From Stenotrophomonas sp. SY1 (GTDB lineage Bacteria; Pseudomonadota; Gammaproteobacteria; Xanthomonadales; Xanthomonadaceae): a stretch of DNA of 64,000 nt. The notes below the pieces were generated by a model. That model did no database searches, had not been told where the DNA came from, and saw only the letters and a program-made list of their open reading frames with translations. Both the position numbers and the translations under genes were made by a program. The stretch is taken from assembly GCF_021202945.1 (NCBI RefSeq), contig NZ_JAJOYR010000002.1, positions 546,112 to 610,111 of the forward strand, given 5' to 3'. Shown one piece after another: positions 4,536 to 10,275 of this stretch. Within the stretch, counting starts at the first letter, position 1. The number at the start of each line of letters is the position of its first letter.

Positions 4536-6635
4536 ATGCCCGCTTCACTGCCGCCCCGCCGCCCCATGCTGCTCGCCCTTGCCATCGCAACCGCGCTGGC
4601 CGCCCCGCTCGCCCAGGCGCAGGACTCGCCCGAAGCCCGCACCCTCGACGCCGTCAGCGTGATCGCCGAGCGTGCCAGCACCGCCACCAAGACCGACACC
4701 CCGCTGACCCAGACGCCGCAGGCGATCAGCGTGGTCACCAACAGCCTGTTCACCGACCGTGACGCCCACAACCTGCAGGAAACCCTGCGCTACAGCGCTG
4801 GCGTCACCGCCGATGCCTGGGGCCTGGACACGCGCAGCGACGGCAGCACCGTGCGCGGCCTGGACCCGGTGCAGTACCTGGACGGCATGCGTCGCAGCTA
4901 CGGCTTCAGCCCGATGGCACGCACCGAGGTCTACGGCCTTGAGCGCGTGGAAGTGCTGCGCGGCCCGTCCTCGGTGCTGTACGGCGCCGGCGCCACCGGC
5001 GGCATCATCAATGCGATGACCAAGCGCCCCACTTTTGGTGACATCGGTGGTGAGGTCGGCGTGCAGCTTGGCAACTTCGACCGCAAGCAGTTCCAGGGCG
5101 ATGTCGGTGGCGTGCTCAATGATGCCGGCACCGTTGCCGGGCGCGTGGTCGGCGTGGTCCGCGACGCTGGCATGCAGACCGATTTCGTCGACGATGACCG
5201 CATCTACATCGCGCCGTCGATCAGCTGGCGCGGCGAGCGCAGCAACCTCACCGTGCTGGCCAGCTACCAGCGCGACCAGACCGCCTCCAGCCAGCAGTTC
5301 CTGCCGGTTGCCGCCACCTTGAATGCACCGGCCGGGCGTCCGAGCCTGGACCCGTCAACCTTCCTCGGCGACCCGGATTTCGACAAGCTTGATTCGCGCG
5401 TGTACAGCCTCTCGGCACTGTTCGACCACGCCTTCAACGACAGCATCAGCCTGCGTGCGTCGGTACGTTACCTGGACGGCAAGACCACCTTCCAGGAATT
5501 GTTCCCGGACAGCTACAGCAACCCGACCAACCCCTTCATCGATGCCGATGGCCGCGTCCTCGCCCGCAACGCCTACGGCATCAAGCCCGACGTACGTGTG
5601 CTGACCAGCGACACCGCACTGCAGTTCGACTTCGCCACCGGCGCGTTCCAGCACCTGCTGCTGGCCGGCGTGGACTACAACGATTACCGCGAGGAATCAT
5701 CCAGCGTCGATGCCACCGCCACGCCGATCGACATCTACGCGCCGGTCTCCGGCGGCGTCACCGTCAATGGCTGGAACCGCCTGCCCACGCAGCGTAACAC
5801 CCAGTTGGGCGTATACGTGCAGGATCAGATCCGCTGGGCCGATCGCGTGTCGCTGGTACTCGGTGCACGCCGCGACCACGCACGCAGCAAGACCGAAGGC
5901 CTGCCCAGCCAGACCGACAACGCCACCACCTATCGTGCCGGCTTGATCGGTGAGATCGGTGCAGGCTTCTCGCCGTACATCAGCTACAGCGAATCGTTCC
6001 TGCCGGTCACCGGCCAGGATCTGTACGGCCGCGCGTTCAAGCCGATGCAGGGCCGTCAGAGCGAGGCCGGTGTGAAGTGGCAGCCGGCGCGCAACATGCT
6101 GGTCACCGCCTCGGTCTACCGCATCACCGAAACCAACCGTCAGACCAACGATCCGGACAACGTGCTCAACGTGGTGCAGACCGGTGAGATCCAGTCCAAG
6201 GGCGTGGAACTGGAAGGCCAGTTCTCCTTCGCCAACGACCTGACCGTCACCGCCGCGTATGCACACAACAAGGCCGAAGTGACCAAGAGCAACTTCGCCA
6301 TGGAAGTGGACCAGCGCCTCAACGACACGCCGCAGGAACTGTCCTCGCTGTGGGTGGCCAAGGGCTTCCAGCTCGACGACGATGCGCGCCTGCGCGTGGG
6401 CGTGGGTGGCCGCTACGTCGGCAACACCCAGTCGCTGGGCTACGGCGGTTTCATCCGCACGCCGAGCTACACGCTGGTCGATGCGCTGATGGAAGTGCAG
6501 GTCACCGATTGGACCATGGCGTTGAACATCACCAACCTGTCCAACAAGCAGTACTTCGCACCCTGCCGCAACTTCGGCGACTGCTTCAGCGGCAATCCGC
6601 GTACCGTGACCGGCACGATCAGCTACCGGTTCTGA
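4536..6635 (+). CDS. TonB-dependent siderophore receptor
   Basis: 699 residues. An outer membrane gated channel that takes up ferric siderophores using TonB energy. Signal peptide about 1-28 (ending AQAQD), TonB box LDAVSVIAE near 36-44, plug domain about 55-155 with VEVLRGPSSVLYGAGATGG, then a long beta barrel ending in a terminal phenylalanine (TISYRF), as outer membrane barrels do. The plug wording places it with FpvA/FhuE/ferrichrome-type receptors; the actual ligand cannot be read. It is followed by a PepSY membrane protein and preceded by a Fur-like box. Confidence 0.93.
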   Translation: MPASLPPRRPMLLALAIATALAAPLAQAQDSPEARTLDAVSVIAERASTATKTDTPLTQTPQAISVVTNSLFTDRDAHNLQETLRYSAGVTADAWGLDTRSDGSTVRGLDPVQYLDGMRRSYGFSPMARTEVYGLERVEVLRGPSSVLYGAGATGGIINAMTKRPTFGDIGGEVGVQLGNFDRKQFQGDVGGVLNDAGTVAGRVVGVVRDAGMQTDFVDDDRIYIAPSISWRGERSNLTVLASYQRDQTASSQQFLPVAATLNAPAGRPSLDPSTFLGDPDFDKLDSRVYSLSALFDHAFNDSISLRASVRYLDGKTTFQELFPDSYSNPTNPFIDADGRVLARNAYGIKPDVRVLTSDTALQFDFATGAFQHLLLAGVDYNDYREESSSVDATATPIDIYAPVSGGVTVNGWNRLPTQRNTQLGVYVQDQIRWADRVSLVLGARRDHARSKTEGLPSQTDNATTYRAGLIGEIGAGFSPYISYSESFLPVTGQDLYGRAFKPMQGRQSEAGVKWQPARNMLVTASVYRITETNRQTNDPDNVLNVVQTGEIQSKGVELEGQFSFANDLTVTAAYAHNKAEVTKSNFAMEVDQRLNDTPQELSSLWVAKGFQLDDDARLRVGVGGRYVGNTQSLGYGGFIRTPSYTLVDALMEVQVTDWTMALNITNLSNKQYFAPCRNFGDCFSGNPRTVTGTISYRF

Positions 6636-6712: not shown

Positions 6713-7849
6713 ATGCAACGTTCGACCCTCAAAGCCTGGTTCCTGGTGCACAAGTGGACCAGCCTGGTCTGCACCCTGTTCCTGTTGCTGCTGTGCCTGA
6801 CCGGGCTGCCGTTGGTATTCGGCGAAGAAATCGCCCACCTCAGTGAACCCGAAGTCGCCGCCGTCGCACCCGACGCCACACCGCGCGACCTGGATGCACA
6901 AGTGCGCAGCGCACTGGCCGAATATCCCGGCGACGTACCGCTCTTCGTCGGCTGGGACCCGGATGCACCCACGGTGTACGTCAACACCGGCGCGCGCCCG
7001 GATACGCCACCGCCGCAGATGCACACCGCACTGCTGCATGCAGTCAGCGGCGACGTGCTACCGGCCGCGCAGTTCAACGAAGGCGTGATGTTCTTCCTCT
7101 ACCGCCTGCATACCGACCTGTTCCTTGGCCTGCCCGGCATGCTGTTCATGGGCACGATGGCGCTGCTGTTCGCCGTGGCGATCATCTCCGGGCTGGTGTT
7201 GTATGGGCCTTTCATGCGCCGCCAGCCATTCGGCACCCTGCGCACCGGCCGCAGCCGGCGTTTGGCGTGGCTGGACCTGCACAACGTGCTCGGCATCGTC
7301 ACCTTCGGCTGGGCGCTGGTGGTCGGCATCACCGGCGCCATCAACACCATCGCCAAGCCACTCGAACAGGCCTGGCAGACCGAGCAGCTCGGCGAGTTCG
7401 CCGCACGCTACGCCGGCCAGCCACGCCCCACCCAGCTGGCTTCACTGCAGGCCGCCGTGGACACCGCACGCGCCGCCGCACCCGGTATGCGTCCGGCTTT
7501 CGTCAGCTTCCCCGGCACCGGCTACAGCGGCGACCACCACTACGGCGTCTTCATGCAGGGCAACACCCCGCTGACCGAGCGCCTGTACCGCCCGGTGTTG
7601 ATCGACGCACAGACCGGCGCACTCACCGCGCAACCACAGCTGCCGGTCTACATGAGCGTGCTGCTGCTCAGCCAGCCACTGCACTTCGGCGACTACGGCC
7701 ACCTGCCGCTGAAAATCCTGTGGGCGTTGCTTGATCTACTCACCATCGCGGTGCTGATCAGCGGCCTGTATCTATGGGTGAAACGCGGCAGCACCGAAGC
7801 ACGCATCACCGAACTCGAGCGCGCCGCGCAGACCGGAGCCAGCGCATGA
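6713..7849 (+). CDS. PepSY-associated inner membrane protein (iron uptake, PiuB-like)
   Basis: 378 residues with four predicted membrane segments near 16-36, 140-165, 195-215 and 335-355, and a periplasmic PepSY-type segment. The opening LKAWFLVHKWTSLVCTLFLL, with HKW, is typical of the PepSY_TM family, members of which act as ferric-siderophore reductases or uptake accessories beside TonB-dependent receptors. Here it follows the receptor by 77 bp and overlaps the next small gene, supporting one iron-regulated transcript. The precise chemistry is inferred from the family. Confidence 0.85.
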   Translation: MQRSTLKAWFLVHKWTSLVCTLFLLLLCLTGLPLVFGEEIAHLSEPEVAAVAPDATPRDLDAQVRSALAEYPGDVPLFVGWDPDAPTVYVNTGARPDTPPPQMHTALLHAVSGDVLPAAQFNEGVMFFLYRLHTDLFLGLPGMLFMGTMALLFAVAIISGLVLYGPFMRRQPFGTLRTGRSRRLAWLDLHNVLGIVTFGWALVVGITGAINTIAKPLEQAWQTEQLGEFAARYAGQPRPTQLASLQAAVDTARAAAPGMRPAFVSFPGTGYSGDHHYGVFMQGNTPLTERLYRPVLIDAQTGALTAQPQLPVYMSVLLLSQPLHFGDYGHLPLKILWALLDLLTIAVLISGLYLWVKRGSTEARITELERAAQTGASA

Positions 7850-8028
7850 GCAAACCCGCGCCCGCACCACGCAATCCCTTCGCCGCCCCGGCATGGATCG
7901 CCGCCGCCAGCCTGCTCGGCCTGGTCAGCGCGCTGATCGGCGACGGCGTATTCGACGTGATCTCGTGGCTGGTGTTCAGCGCGTTGGTGGCGCTGCTGAT
8001 TCGTGCGTGGGTCAAGCGGACGCGGTGA
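7846..8028 (+). CDS. 60-residue membrane protein of the iron-uptake operon
   Basis: Starts at the ATG overlapping the PepSY stop codon (ATGA). After MSKPAPAPRNPFAAP it has two short hydrophobic stretches (about 15-32 and 36-54) and a basic tail KRTR, a probable two-segment inner membrane protein. No family recognised. The translational coupling and position suggest a partner of the PepSY protein. Longer forms starting at 7774 would overlap the PepSY gene without reason. Confidence 0.7.
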   Translation: MSKPAPAPRNPFAAPAWIAAASLLGLVSALIGDGVFDVISWLVFSALVALLIRAWVKRTR

Positions 8029-8090
8029 GTGCGTAGCTGGCCGCCATATCGCACCGAAGCCAAGCAGAAACAACCTACAGCCCGCATACG

Positions 8091-8162
8091 AAAAAACCGG
8101 CATTCGCCGGTTCTTCTACAACACTCCGATTTGAATGGTGGGAGTTACAGGTATTGAACCTG
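8091..8162. repeat. Left direct repeat: diverged copy of tRNA-Val 3' end plus terminator
   Basis: This 72-bp stretch matches 9740-9811 at about 60 of 72 positions without gaps, by hand alignment. The right copy is the terminator and the 3' part of the tRNA-Val(CAC) gene, so the left copy looks like the far attachment site left by an integration into that tRNA. The left copy's T-loop is decayed, so it is not part of a working tRNA. Confidence 0.7.
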
Positions 8163-8174
8163 AAAGACAGTGAG

Positions 8175-8246
8175 CAGAGTCAGGTCCTTGTTAAAACTCG
8201 ACTCTGACCCCTGTTCTTCGTTCCTGTTCTTCGACCCCTGTTCTTC
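8175..8246. repeat. Inverted repeat and short tandem repeat at island edge
   Basis: cagagtc (8175-8181) and gactctg (8200-8206) form an inverted repeat, followed at once by gacccctgttcttc at 8206-8219, a shortened copy ttcctgttcttc at 8221-8232 and an exact second copy at 8233-8246. It lies between the left direct repeat and the island gene. Origin unknown; it may be the end of a decayed mobile element. Confidence 0.55.
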
Positions 8247-8280
8247 AAAAAAGCTGTCGTCACCCTACGAAGTGGGAAGT

Positions 8281-9678
8281 CTAGAATACGAGGTTTGCCA
8301 AATCCGAAGCAGCATTCATTCCACCACGCCAATCACCACCAGTGCCAGGCAAGACGAACGCATATCGCTCATCGCCCTGAAACACTATCCGCGGATGATT
8401 ACCCTTCTCAACAACGAAGCCTAACTCTTCTAGAATCGCGATCGTCTTCTTATCTAAACTCCGGTAGTCGCGCAGCGCTTCCTTGATTTTCTCGCGACTA
8501 CGGGGAGCCATTCCAACAACCTTATTGGATTCCAAGATGGCCTCCACAATGTGTCGCCGCCGGGTCCCCTGAATCGCCCGCCCGACCTCTGCCTGAACAG
8601 CTCCAAGCACAACATCCAGTATCTCCCCAGCGTACAAGTCTGCTTCTTGTCCGACTGAGAATGAAACCCCACCTTGCATTGCTCGAATTCGCTCATGCTC
8701 CCTGATCTCGGCCTTAAGACGAGCGATTTCACGCTCTGCGCTTTCGAGACTCTCATCCTTAGCTAGCAACTCAACGTCGAAATGCGCAGCATATTCATCA
8801 AATCCCTTATTGCCTTCCTTTTTGTAGTGCTCGATTTCACTACGCGAGATGGCTGAATCGACGGAGGAGAATGTGCAACGATCTAGTGGCCGCCGGTTGA
8901 TGAGGGCTGCCCGAACTTCCTCCTCAATCGCTGACTCCATCTCATTTATCGACGAGAAGTCCCCTCGACGGAACTGAGACCTACGACCACCACTATCAGG
9001 CCAATAAATGCCTACTGCCCCACCGTAGACATTCTCTGAGTTGACCTGGTCACGTAGTCGCCAAGAGAAAGACCGGCTTGGCTCGACCACTAAGTGCGCC
9101 ATTCCAGCAAGCTTATGACTAAGGTTGCCAATACGAACAAAGTGCTTATTCGAAGAGGGTGCGCTTACGTAAACGATAGGCAGACGATTTCCCGCCTTTC
9201 CTGCTATCAGGTCAATAGCAAGGGCCATGTCCGCGTTAGTCAAACTTATGGGCTTCCCCAAAACAAGCCCATTGTCATCGCCCCCCCCAAGATGCTCGAG
9301 TAGTTGCTTGACCAGCAAAGGCTTTTTGCCGGACGGCAGCACCGCGGCTGGGTGCCGTGACTCGCAGAGAGTTCGAACAGAAACCCAGCTGTCGGCGGTG
9401 CGCTTTGAGAAAGTAGCTAATGTCATCCACTGGAGCACTCCATCTTGGACGACGTAACGGATCGCTCCACTGTCCACTGCAGAGTCAACAAACCGCAGGG
9501 AGTCGAGCTTTGCCCGCCCTCGTTCTGATGAAGCCCGCCCGTGGGCATTGAGGACAGCCAAGTCTTCGCTCGTTAGGACGTTGTGCGGAGAGCCGGAGAT
9601 CTACTGCCGCACTGCATCCATGAAATCCGAACTGGTGGCACCGAAAGAAACCGGAAAATCAGTAGCGAAGGACAGCAT
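8281..9678 (-). pseudogene. Island cargo gene of unknown function, interrupted by one in-frame amber codon
   Basis: Reading from the ATG at 9676-9678 gives 25 codons (MLSFATDFPVSFGATS... ending AVRQ), then TAG at 9601-9603, then 440 more codons in the same frame without a stop; a TTG at 9559-9561 could restart translation to give a 426-residue product. A restored protein would be about 466 residues. The middle has PIVYVSA, LSHKLAGMAHLVVEP and GGAVGIYWPD; then a charged coiled coil (about residues 265-300 of the TTG form); the C-terminal 60 residues (KTIAILEELGFVVEKG, HPRIVF, then a DWRGGMNAASD stretch) look like a HicA-type dsRNA-binding fold. Base composition is visibly lower in GC than the neighbours. 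I do not recognise the family; defence-related cargo is only a guess from the setting. Confidence 0.65.
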
Positions 9679-9739
9679 CTAGCCCCCTGTAGGCCAACAT
9701 CCTAATGACCAATACCAATGGCACTTATCACGCACCTAC

Positions 9740-9811
9740 AAAAAACCGGCTTTCGCCGGTTCTTCTGCAACACTTTGATTTTTATGGTGGGCGGTGCAGG
9801 GTTCGAACCTG
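9740..9811. repeat. Right direct repeat: tRNA-Val(CAC) 3' end plus terminator
   Basis: Intact partner of the repeat at 8091-8162 (about 83% identical). It covers the terminator hairpin accggctttcgccggt and the T-arm and acceptor end of the tRNA. Confidence 0.7.
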
Positions 9812-9859
9812 CGACCCTTGCCGTGTGAAGGCAATGCTCTACCGCTGAGCTAACCGCCC
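9785..9859 (-). tRNA. tRNA-Val (CAC)
   Basis: 75 nt on the minus strand, from gggcggt to a genome-encoded CCA. Acceptor gggcggt pairs with accgccc; the anticodon loop ttcacac between ttgcc and ggcaa gives anticodon CAC (codon GUG). T-loop ggttcgaac intact. A terminator hairpin follows at about 9740-9765. Confidence 0.97.
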
Positions 9860-9921
9860 GTGTTGCGAGCCGCTCATTATAGGGAGCTGAGCGGACACGT
9901 CAACGGTTTTCACAAACTTCT

Positions 9922-10275
9922 TCACATCGTCTGGGTGGGCTTGTCCGAGCCGGACGTGCCCGCCAGCAGGGTCTCGATCTTGTTGCGGATTGCCTCGCCA
10001 TCAGCACCATCGGCCAGCTGCACGCCGATGCCGGCCTGGCGGTTGCCCTGGGCGCCCAGCGGCGTCACCCAGACCACCTTGCCGGCGATGGGCAGGCGCT
10101 CGTTGGAGTCGGGCAAGGTCATCAGCAGGAACACCTCGTCGCCGAGGAAATAGCGCTTGGGCGTGGGTACGAAGACACCGCCATTCTTCACAAACGGCAT
10201 GTAGGCGCTGTACAGCGCTGCCTTGTCCTTCACCGCCAGGGACAGGATGCCCTGGCGCGCGTTCATCGCACTCAT
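9922..10275 (-). CDS. pilZ: PilZ, type IV pilus assembly protein
   Basis: 117 residues. In Xanthomonas the PilZ encoded beside holB binds FimX and the pilus ATPase PilB and is needed for twitching motility. The single domain shows GGVFVPTPKRYFLGDEVFLL and KVVWVTPLG. The N-terminal RxxxR arginine motif that binds cyclic di-GMP in other PilZ domains is not visible (the region reads ARQGILSLAVKDK), in line with the non-binding founding PilZ. The start ATG overlaps the holB stop (10272-10275), so the genes are coupled. Confidence 0.93.
   Translation of the reverse strand: MSAMNARQGILSLAVKDKAALYSAYMPFVKNGGVFVPTPKRYFLGDEVFLLMTLPDSNERLPIAGKVVWVTPLGAQGNRQAGIGVQLADGADGEAIRNKIETLLAGTSGSDKPTQTM

Follow-up and report, generated by a model that had tools for sequence, protein, structure and literature searches.

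The interval beside tRNA-Val(CAC) in the window, by which we mean the whole 64-kb stretch of DNA analysed, is best explained in full as the remnant of a larger integrative island that inserted at this tRNA gene and later shrank, leaving a gene that is probably inactive; we hold this account with good confidence. We file the interval as an island remnant and not as a working island, because the integrase gene is absent from the element. The earlier interpretation, a reading of the sequence alone, was thus largely right.

Structure and composition of the locus

An intact tRNA-Val(CAC) gene was identified with ARAGORN on the minus strand at 9785-9859. A repeat search of the window recovered the imperfect direct repeat of about 83% identity that the sequence-only reading had described: 8091-8162 and 9740-9811 form a gap-free pair of 72 nt with 60 identical positions (83%), and the next-best ungapped match of the right copy on either strand of the window reaches 38/72 (mean 18.0, sd 3.7). 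The repeat consists of 27 nt of the tRNA-Val 3′ end, the trailer and the terminator. The enclosed interval (8163-9739; 1,577 bp) is indeed a block of lower GC, with a GC content of 0.529 compared with 0.646 for the window, and the GC3 of its cargo gene is 0.547 against 0.777-0.890 in five neighbouring genes. By its composition, the cargo gene is of foreign origin. The interval contains one gene and no integrase, again as proposed: no second gene was recognised among the open reading frames (ORFs) of at least 60 aa, and a search for integrase remnants in 8000-9900 gave no credible match (best E 0.15). The whole genome has 11 Phage_integrase matches, the nearest of which on the same contig are located approximately 176 kb and 426 kb away. 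Two features can be added to the earlier description, an in-frame TAG in the cargo gene and an end repeat beside the tRNA terminator. The features of the locus are as follows.

7774..8090, no strand: left host flank with the end of a PepSY gene, an 84-aa ORF and a spacer, which abuts the repeat directly in the related genome G024 (ORFs, alignment to G024).
8091..8162, minus strand: left (distal) repeat copy with an orphan terminator and 27 nt of drifted tRNA-Val 3′ end, a putative far-side attachment-site remnant (60/72 versus the right copy; 13/72 differences versus G024).
8174..8246, no strand: short dispersed motifs by the left breakpoint, GACCCCTGTTCTTC twice and 7-bp inverted arms, the latter by eye (repeat and genome motif search).
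8281..9678, minus strand: cargo gene of the HEC-07-profile family, ATG at 9678 and stop at 8281, probably a pseudogene (profile search, frame inspection).
8281..9561, minus strand: longest unbroken ORF in the cargo-gene frame, 426 aa, TTG start (ORF list).
8284..8496, minus strand: C-terminal domain, HicA-like in relatives, alpha-beta-beta-beta-alpha with an invariant His (model of a relative and alignment).
8890..9258, minus strand: predicted thioredoxin-like middle domain, approximate limits (mapped through the alignment from the model of a relative).
9601..9603, minus strand: in-frame TAG, codon 26 of the cargo gene (frame inspection).
9721..9739, plus strand: GCACTTATCACGCACCTAC, a degenerate tandem end repeat and presumed integrase arm-type binding site (pattern search, comparison with islands at the same tRNA).
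9740..9811, minus strand: right repeat copy with terminator, trailer and 27 nt of tRNA 3′ end (repeat search).
9785..9859, minus strand: tRNA-Val(CAC), the presumed integration target, intact (ARAGORN).

Both copies of GACCCCTGTTCTTC are found at 8206-8246; the genome holds six copies in total at no more than one mismatch, and the other four have one mismatch each.

A single-copy site in a related genome

By the sequence-only reading, an empty site in related strains should have one copy of the repeat, and such a site is present in G024, a genome of the same genus, where the left flank and the tRNA meet through one repeat copy. When 7901-8090 and 9740-10000 of the window were joined in a script, the product matched G024 in a single uninterrupted alignment, in which 396 of the 457 columns are identical. 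The single copy of G024 differs from the right copy at 2/72 positions and from the left copy at 13/72 (Fisher P 0.005), and 73 of 379 third codon positions of the flanking PepSY gene differ between the window and G024. From these values we conclude that the left copy changes at roughly the rate of weakly constrained sites and that function preserves the right copy. The comparison leads us to read the left copy as a drifted tRNA end with its terminator, and not as the conserved non-tRNA element that had been considered as an alternative. G024 need not have been empty originally; an island may have been present there and then lost.

G066 likewise has this flank next to a left copy that has drifted, at a contig end. 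The left copies of the window and G066 have two derived bases in common, yet differ at 21/72 positions, which is more than the third positions of the PepSY gene (44/379 between these two genomes) and less than the adjoining spacer (24/62 different, 38/62 identical). An insertion common to the window and G066 is therefore possible, judging from these alignments, but unproven, because the left copies differ more than the PepSY third positions do.

tRNA-Val(CAC) as an integration hotspot

Comparison of the flanking sequences indicates that, in this genus, tRNA-Val(CAC) serves as an integration hotspot. In 16 of 86 same-genus genomes the tRNA terminator is directly adjoined, no more than 110 bp from the 3′ end of the tRNA, by a tandem repeat (GCACTTACCnnGCACTTAC-like, for example GCACTTACCATGCACTTAC), which is of the TTAC type in 14 cases and of the GCAGGA type in two. 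The survey covered 86 of the 90 other genomes of the genus, leaving out G073, G093, G101 and G104 and including G078, G015, G030 and G064 despite their short flanks (79 to 2437 bases). A background count for the TTAC type, over 1.19 Mb of flanks, gave four further copies on the same strand and none on the opposite strand. An integrase match was obtained in five of the 86 genomes. In four of these (G066, G072, G085 and G007) a repeat of the same kind is located at the integrase start, and in the fifth (G025) the integrase match starts at residue 132, with the repeat 381 bp ahead of it. In the remaining 11 of the 16 genomes with the repeat, the fetched flank, which mostly spans approximately 14 kb and sometimes less, gave no integrase match.

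The islands of these genomes end in a distal copy of the tRNA 3′ end. This copy measures 47 bp in G066 (at 11.4 kb), G085 (9.9 kb), G007 (12.1 kb) and G072 (2.7 kb), and 48 bp with 87.5% identity in G025 (7.2 kb). In G066, G085 and G007 the integrase gene begins beside the distal copy, and the encoded proteins match PF13356 (Arm-DNA-bind_3) above the cut-off and Phage_integrase, the latter below the cut-off in two of the three. We take tyrosine integrases with this arm domain to be of the P4 type. The 2.7-kb island of G072 (L075:1419-4231) carries an end repeat at either side, and its 47-bp tRNA copy is perfect; of the integrase it retains a stub only, of which 33 aa were matched. Its genes gave a sub-threshold HATPase match and a DUF4325 match, and none in PADLOC. 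The island of G066 carries PDC-S49 and AbiTii candidates according to PADLOC, so that defence-type cargo does occur at the tRNA-Val(CAC) site; nine proteins from three or four hotspot islands gave two strong PADLOC matches, one weak match and six without a match.

The window has GCACTTATCACGCACCTAC at 9721-9739, in the same position beside the terminator as the end repeats of its relatives and identical to the integrase-side repeat of G066 at 17 of 19 positions. This is the sole match of the relaxed end-repeat pattern on either strand of the 64 kb, so that a second, distal end repeat is absent; we loosened the pattern by one base after inspecting the window, and its strict form misses the window copy. 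We propose that the end repeat is an integrase arm-type binding site. Integration into the tRNA 3′ end, the architecture suggested by the sequence-only reading, is supported by the single-copy site of G024, the integrase islands at the same tRNA, the shared end repeat and the composition. A literature search limited to listings yielded no recognised description of a tRNA-Val hotspot in this genus, and no direct precedent for the present findings.

A possible second integration scar was observed outside the window, at G000:C8:7027-7726 and G000:C26:6722-6768 (L006, L008), where an integrase match adjoins tRNA-Val(GAC) near a contig end and a partial copy of a tRNA-Val 3′ end is located on another contig.

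State of the cargo gene

Read from the ATG at 9678, the frame of the cargo gene is interrupted by a TAG at codon 26 and has no further stop before the one at 8281. Because of this in-frame TAG, the 426-aa ORF represents the gene without its N-terminus. To judge conservation, we used a set of sequences (A3) containing the window ORF, 32 of the 64 genome loci and three of the 20 viral loci described below, hand-chosen for length and spread. The window protein departs from five of 37 near-invariant columns, more than 34 of the 35 other sequences, which depart from none to three; the remaining one is very divergent and departs from 10 of 38. In addition, a one-residue gap precedes the conserved His in the C-terminal domain of the window protein. 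We conclude from the amber codon, the changes at conserved sites and the gap that the gene is decaying and probably a pseudogene. It could instead be a working defence gene in which the TAG is suppressed, bypassed by a downstream start or the product of a sequencing error, as the rest of the frame is open and the assembly is a draft of 42 contigs. We find this unlikely: against it stand the N-terminus that precedes the TAG, which is common to the relatives, the altered near-invariant positions and the gap in the C-terminal domain. The amber codon is present in the assembly, and we take it to be probably genuine, although it may be a draft error. Two more family members, L175 and L145, have a frame that ends early, and decay of the gene may not be rare.

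Distribution and carriers of the gene family

Presence of the gene at this place in all close relatives, which the sequence-only reading had named as contrary to its proposal, was not observed. No orthologue was detected in 36 same-genus genomes, and the 31% partial match in G023, of the same genus, lies on a contig other than that of its tRNA-Val. Among 397 genomes of the order 14 match, including the genome studied here, and six of the others match over the whole length at 32-38% identity and without a stop. A query with an alignment found relatives at a minimum of 64 loci among 84,980 species genomes (best-segment identity 24-50%) and on a minimum of 20 virus-classified contigs (25-46%), both of which are lower bounds, since the search requires a conserved motif; single-sequence scans of the genome and viral contigs found no relative, whereas the alignment query did. 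Members of the family have a size of approximately 467 aa, and most listed frames with a pattern-recognised start measure 461-490 aa.

Relatives are carried by several kinds of mobile element. One relative, in L153 (Arenimonas donghaensis, the same place as L121), is part of a 14-kb island bounded by tRNA-Phe and an integrase, next to which the 3′ end of the tRNA is repeated exactly over 49 bp. Another, in L143 (Fulvimonas soli, the same place as L120), forms one cassette between two attC sites of an integron array with at least 13 attC, and a simple pattern recognised attC-type ends at five of the 64 loci. Protein relatives were found in 10 plasmid records at 25-43% identity, among them 5.9-kb Klebsiella plasmids, of which the one inspected is of the ColRNAI type. 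A tRNA lies within the fetched flank of 13 of the 64 relatives, an uncontrolled count that by itself says nothing. A relative at 4848-6041 of a Citrobacter plasmid (L095) is annotated as a shortened CDS and is followed by ISKpn6 and a KPC gene. At 1186-4308 of L122 (G235), the gene of a relative adjoins what we take to be genes resembling a DarTG pair.

Other origins of the islet itself were considered and rejected. Relatives adjoin attC sites in L143 and elsewhere, but no attC-like sequence was found in 8000-9900 of the window with a strict pattern of low sensitivity, which recovers two of the at least 13 attC of L120. There was no DNA match in 72,556 plasmid records (blastn, E 1e-5), and no protein match in 50,697 phage records, though 20 virus-classified contigs hold relatives.

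Predicted domains and candidate function

The PADLOC profile of HEC-07 (PDLC04161) matches residues 55-330 of the window protein at E 1.2e-9, over positions 75-353 of the 553 in the profile, and it matches all eight members of a set (A2) that consists of the window protein and seven relatives. HEC denotes Hma-embedded candidate (Payne et al. 2024 preprint, via PMC12988326); PMC12988326 describes these systems as defence candidates and reports that several were active, HEC-06 among them. The literature search found no published account of HEC-07 itself. The window protein and its seven relatives match the HEC-07 profile over about half of its length, but the family is approximately 90 aa shorter than the profile, its HicA-like C-terminus falls outside the matched part, and no other defence gene surrounds the window gene. 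NCBIfam gave no match for the window protein, and Pfam gave only a sub-threshold match to DUF7436.

An AlphaFold model of the intact relative L133 (mean pLDDT 87.6, pTM 0.62) has a predicted thioredoxin-like domain at residues 141-264, for which the best VIA-align row has Z 10.3, an rmsd of 2.8, 106 aligned residues and 8% identity. Such a shared fold in a model does not show a function. The long helix that follows is presumably a coiled coil. The C-terminus of the model is arranged as alpha-beta-beta-beta-alpha and contains a His that is invariant in 36/36 sequences of A3. The HicA-like profile of PADLOC matches 20 of 21 C-termini and six of eight full proteins scanned, the window's own full-length protein not being among the matches listed. 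A further hand-chosen set (A4), again selected for length and spread, comprises the window protein, 18 genome loci and two viral loci. The Pfam HicA_toxin family matches seven of 21 C-termini weakly (best E 0.0085), and 6hpb, a HicA, appeared at E 0.29 among other chance-level rows. In PHROGs, the C-terminus had weak matches to two functionally uncharacterised families (best E 0.0011) and a further one at chance level. When the full model was searched with Foldseek, no match reached E 0.001 or better, and we make no claim from weak helix-grip matches. The C-terminal domain of the relatives is like the HicA mRNA interferase in its alpha-beta3-alpha arrangement with an invariant His, and unlike it in being fused to a large protein and in the weakness of the sequence matches. 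No HicB antitoxin gene was found beside the cargo gene in the interval (ORFs of at least 60 aa). We tentatively suggest, as an idea somewhat short of probable, that the family combines a sensor body with a HicA-like RNase released on infection; its defence function and RNase action are likewise putative.

History of the islet

In the history that we propose, an integrative island with an arm-domain tyrosine integrase would have entered the 3′ end of tRNA-Val(CAC), leaving a rebuilt tRNA and terminator at 9740-9811 and the displaced tRNA end and terminator at 8091-8162. A later deletion would have removed the integrase together with its end repeat and the neighbouring 20 bp of distal tRNA copy, sparing one cargo gene and, on the tRNA side, the end repeat at 9721-9739; the displaced copy, free of selection, would have drifted to 83%. 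The product of the cargo gene would originally have been a stand-alone protein in which a beta-rich N-terminus preceded a thioredoxin-like domain, a coiled coil and, at the C-terminus, a HicA-like domain of RNase type. Its most likely role would have been infection-triggered growth arrest (abortive defence), and the gene would probably have become inactive in this genome through the amber codon. The islet resembles tRNA-targeted islands with arm-domain tyrosine integrases in the duplication of the tRNA 3′ end at the far side, the intact tRNA, the foreign GC content, the single-copy site in a relative and an end repeat common to the integrase-bearing islands at the same tRNA. It differs from them in the absence of an integrase and of one end repeat, in its drifted distal copy of 27 nt and in its single cargo gene.

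The sequence-only reading had offered two histories, a shrunken larger island or a mini-element moved in trans, of which our results favour the former and weaken the latter. Two points speak against our account. Homology of the distal tRNA copy stops after 27 nt in the window, whereas islands elsewhere show 47. The cargo gene, in which we see a single stop and no frameshift, also looks less old than the left copy with its drift, and may therefore have arrived after the first island. Shrinkage of a larger island is the simplest account because the integrase end is missing: there is no integrase and no second end repeat, and 27 of the 47 nt of the distal tRNA copy are left. We infer that the missing parts were once present in the window and were then deleted. 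The alternative mini-element would have had two working ends and one defence gene as its cargo, and the integrase of a related island would have mobilised it in trans. It would find a parallel in the G072 island, which like the islet is small, has lost its integrase and has few genes, and the window does retain one end repeat. G072, unlike the window, keeps both end repeats and the perfect 47-bp copy, and carries other genes (HATPase, sub-threshold, and DUF4325); the lack of a distal end repeat, the 27 drifted nt of the distal copy and the absence of an orthologue from the 36 same-genus genomes make transfer in trans an improbable history for the islet. A broader conjecture, which we consider doubtful, is that integrase-stripped mini-islands with one to three cargo genes, such as those of the window and G072, recur at tRNA-Val(CAC) in this genus and are moved by the integrases of full islands at this site, the islet being a decayed member, and that the gene family, itself uncharacterised, provides abortive defence through a single gene whose effector tail is HicA-like, spreading through tRNA islands, integron cassettes, small plasmids and phage-like elements.

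Tandem accretion, which is compatible with shrinkage, has a modest chance of being part of the history. The left copy would then be what remains, at the tRNA-proximal end, of an older island that has vanished, and the islet would have integrated in front of it as a second event. Relatives have terminators of the left-copy type next to end repeats, the distal copies of G066, G072 and G007 are followed by another terminator type, G085 has a terminator of the left-copy type and a single GCAGGAG unit beyond its distal copy, and the spacer just before the left copy weakly resembles the end repeat. All of these points were judged by eye, however, the resemblance before the left copy is weak, and no body of an old island was recognised at the left copy. 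Another reading is that the tRNA gene was duplicated in tandem and the duplicate decayed, some other process having placed a gene between the copies. It would account for a repeat that holds both tRNA end and terminator, and other tRNA genes in the window do stand in tandem; it would explain neither the 9721-9739 end repeat nor the presence of integrase islands at this tRNA, and the tRNA similarity of the left copy ends after 27 nt, so that we regard it as highly improbable.

Significance

The islet, a decayed tRNA island that carries a candidate defence gene, is a well-supported addition to a known kind. This one locus shows what a decaying island may leave behind, as the integrase and the distal end are gone while the tRNA-side end repeat and one cargo gene are kept. 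The end repeat provides a sequence tag with which more integrase-less remnants at tRNA genes may be found. The gene family, with its HicA-like tail on a thioredoxin-like body, is a testable candidate for defence in several kinds of mobile carrier.
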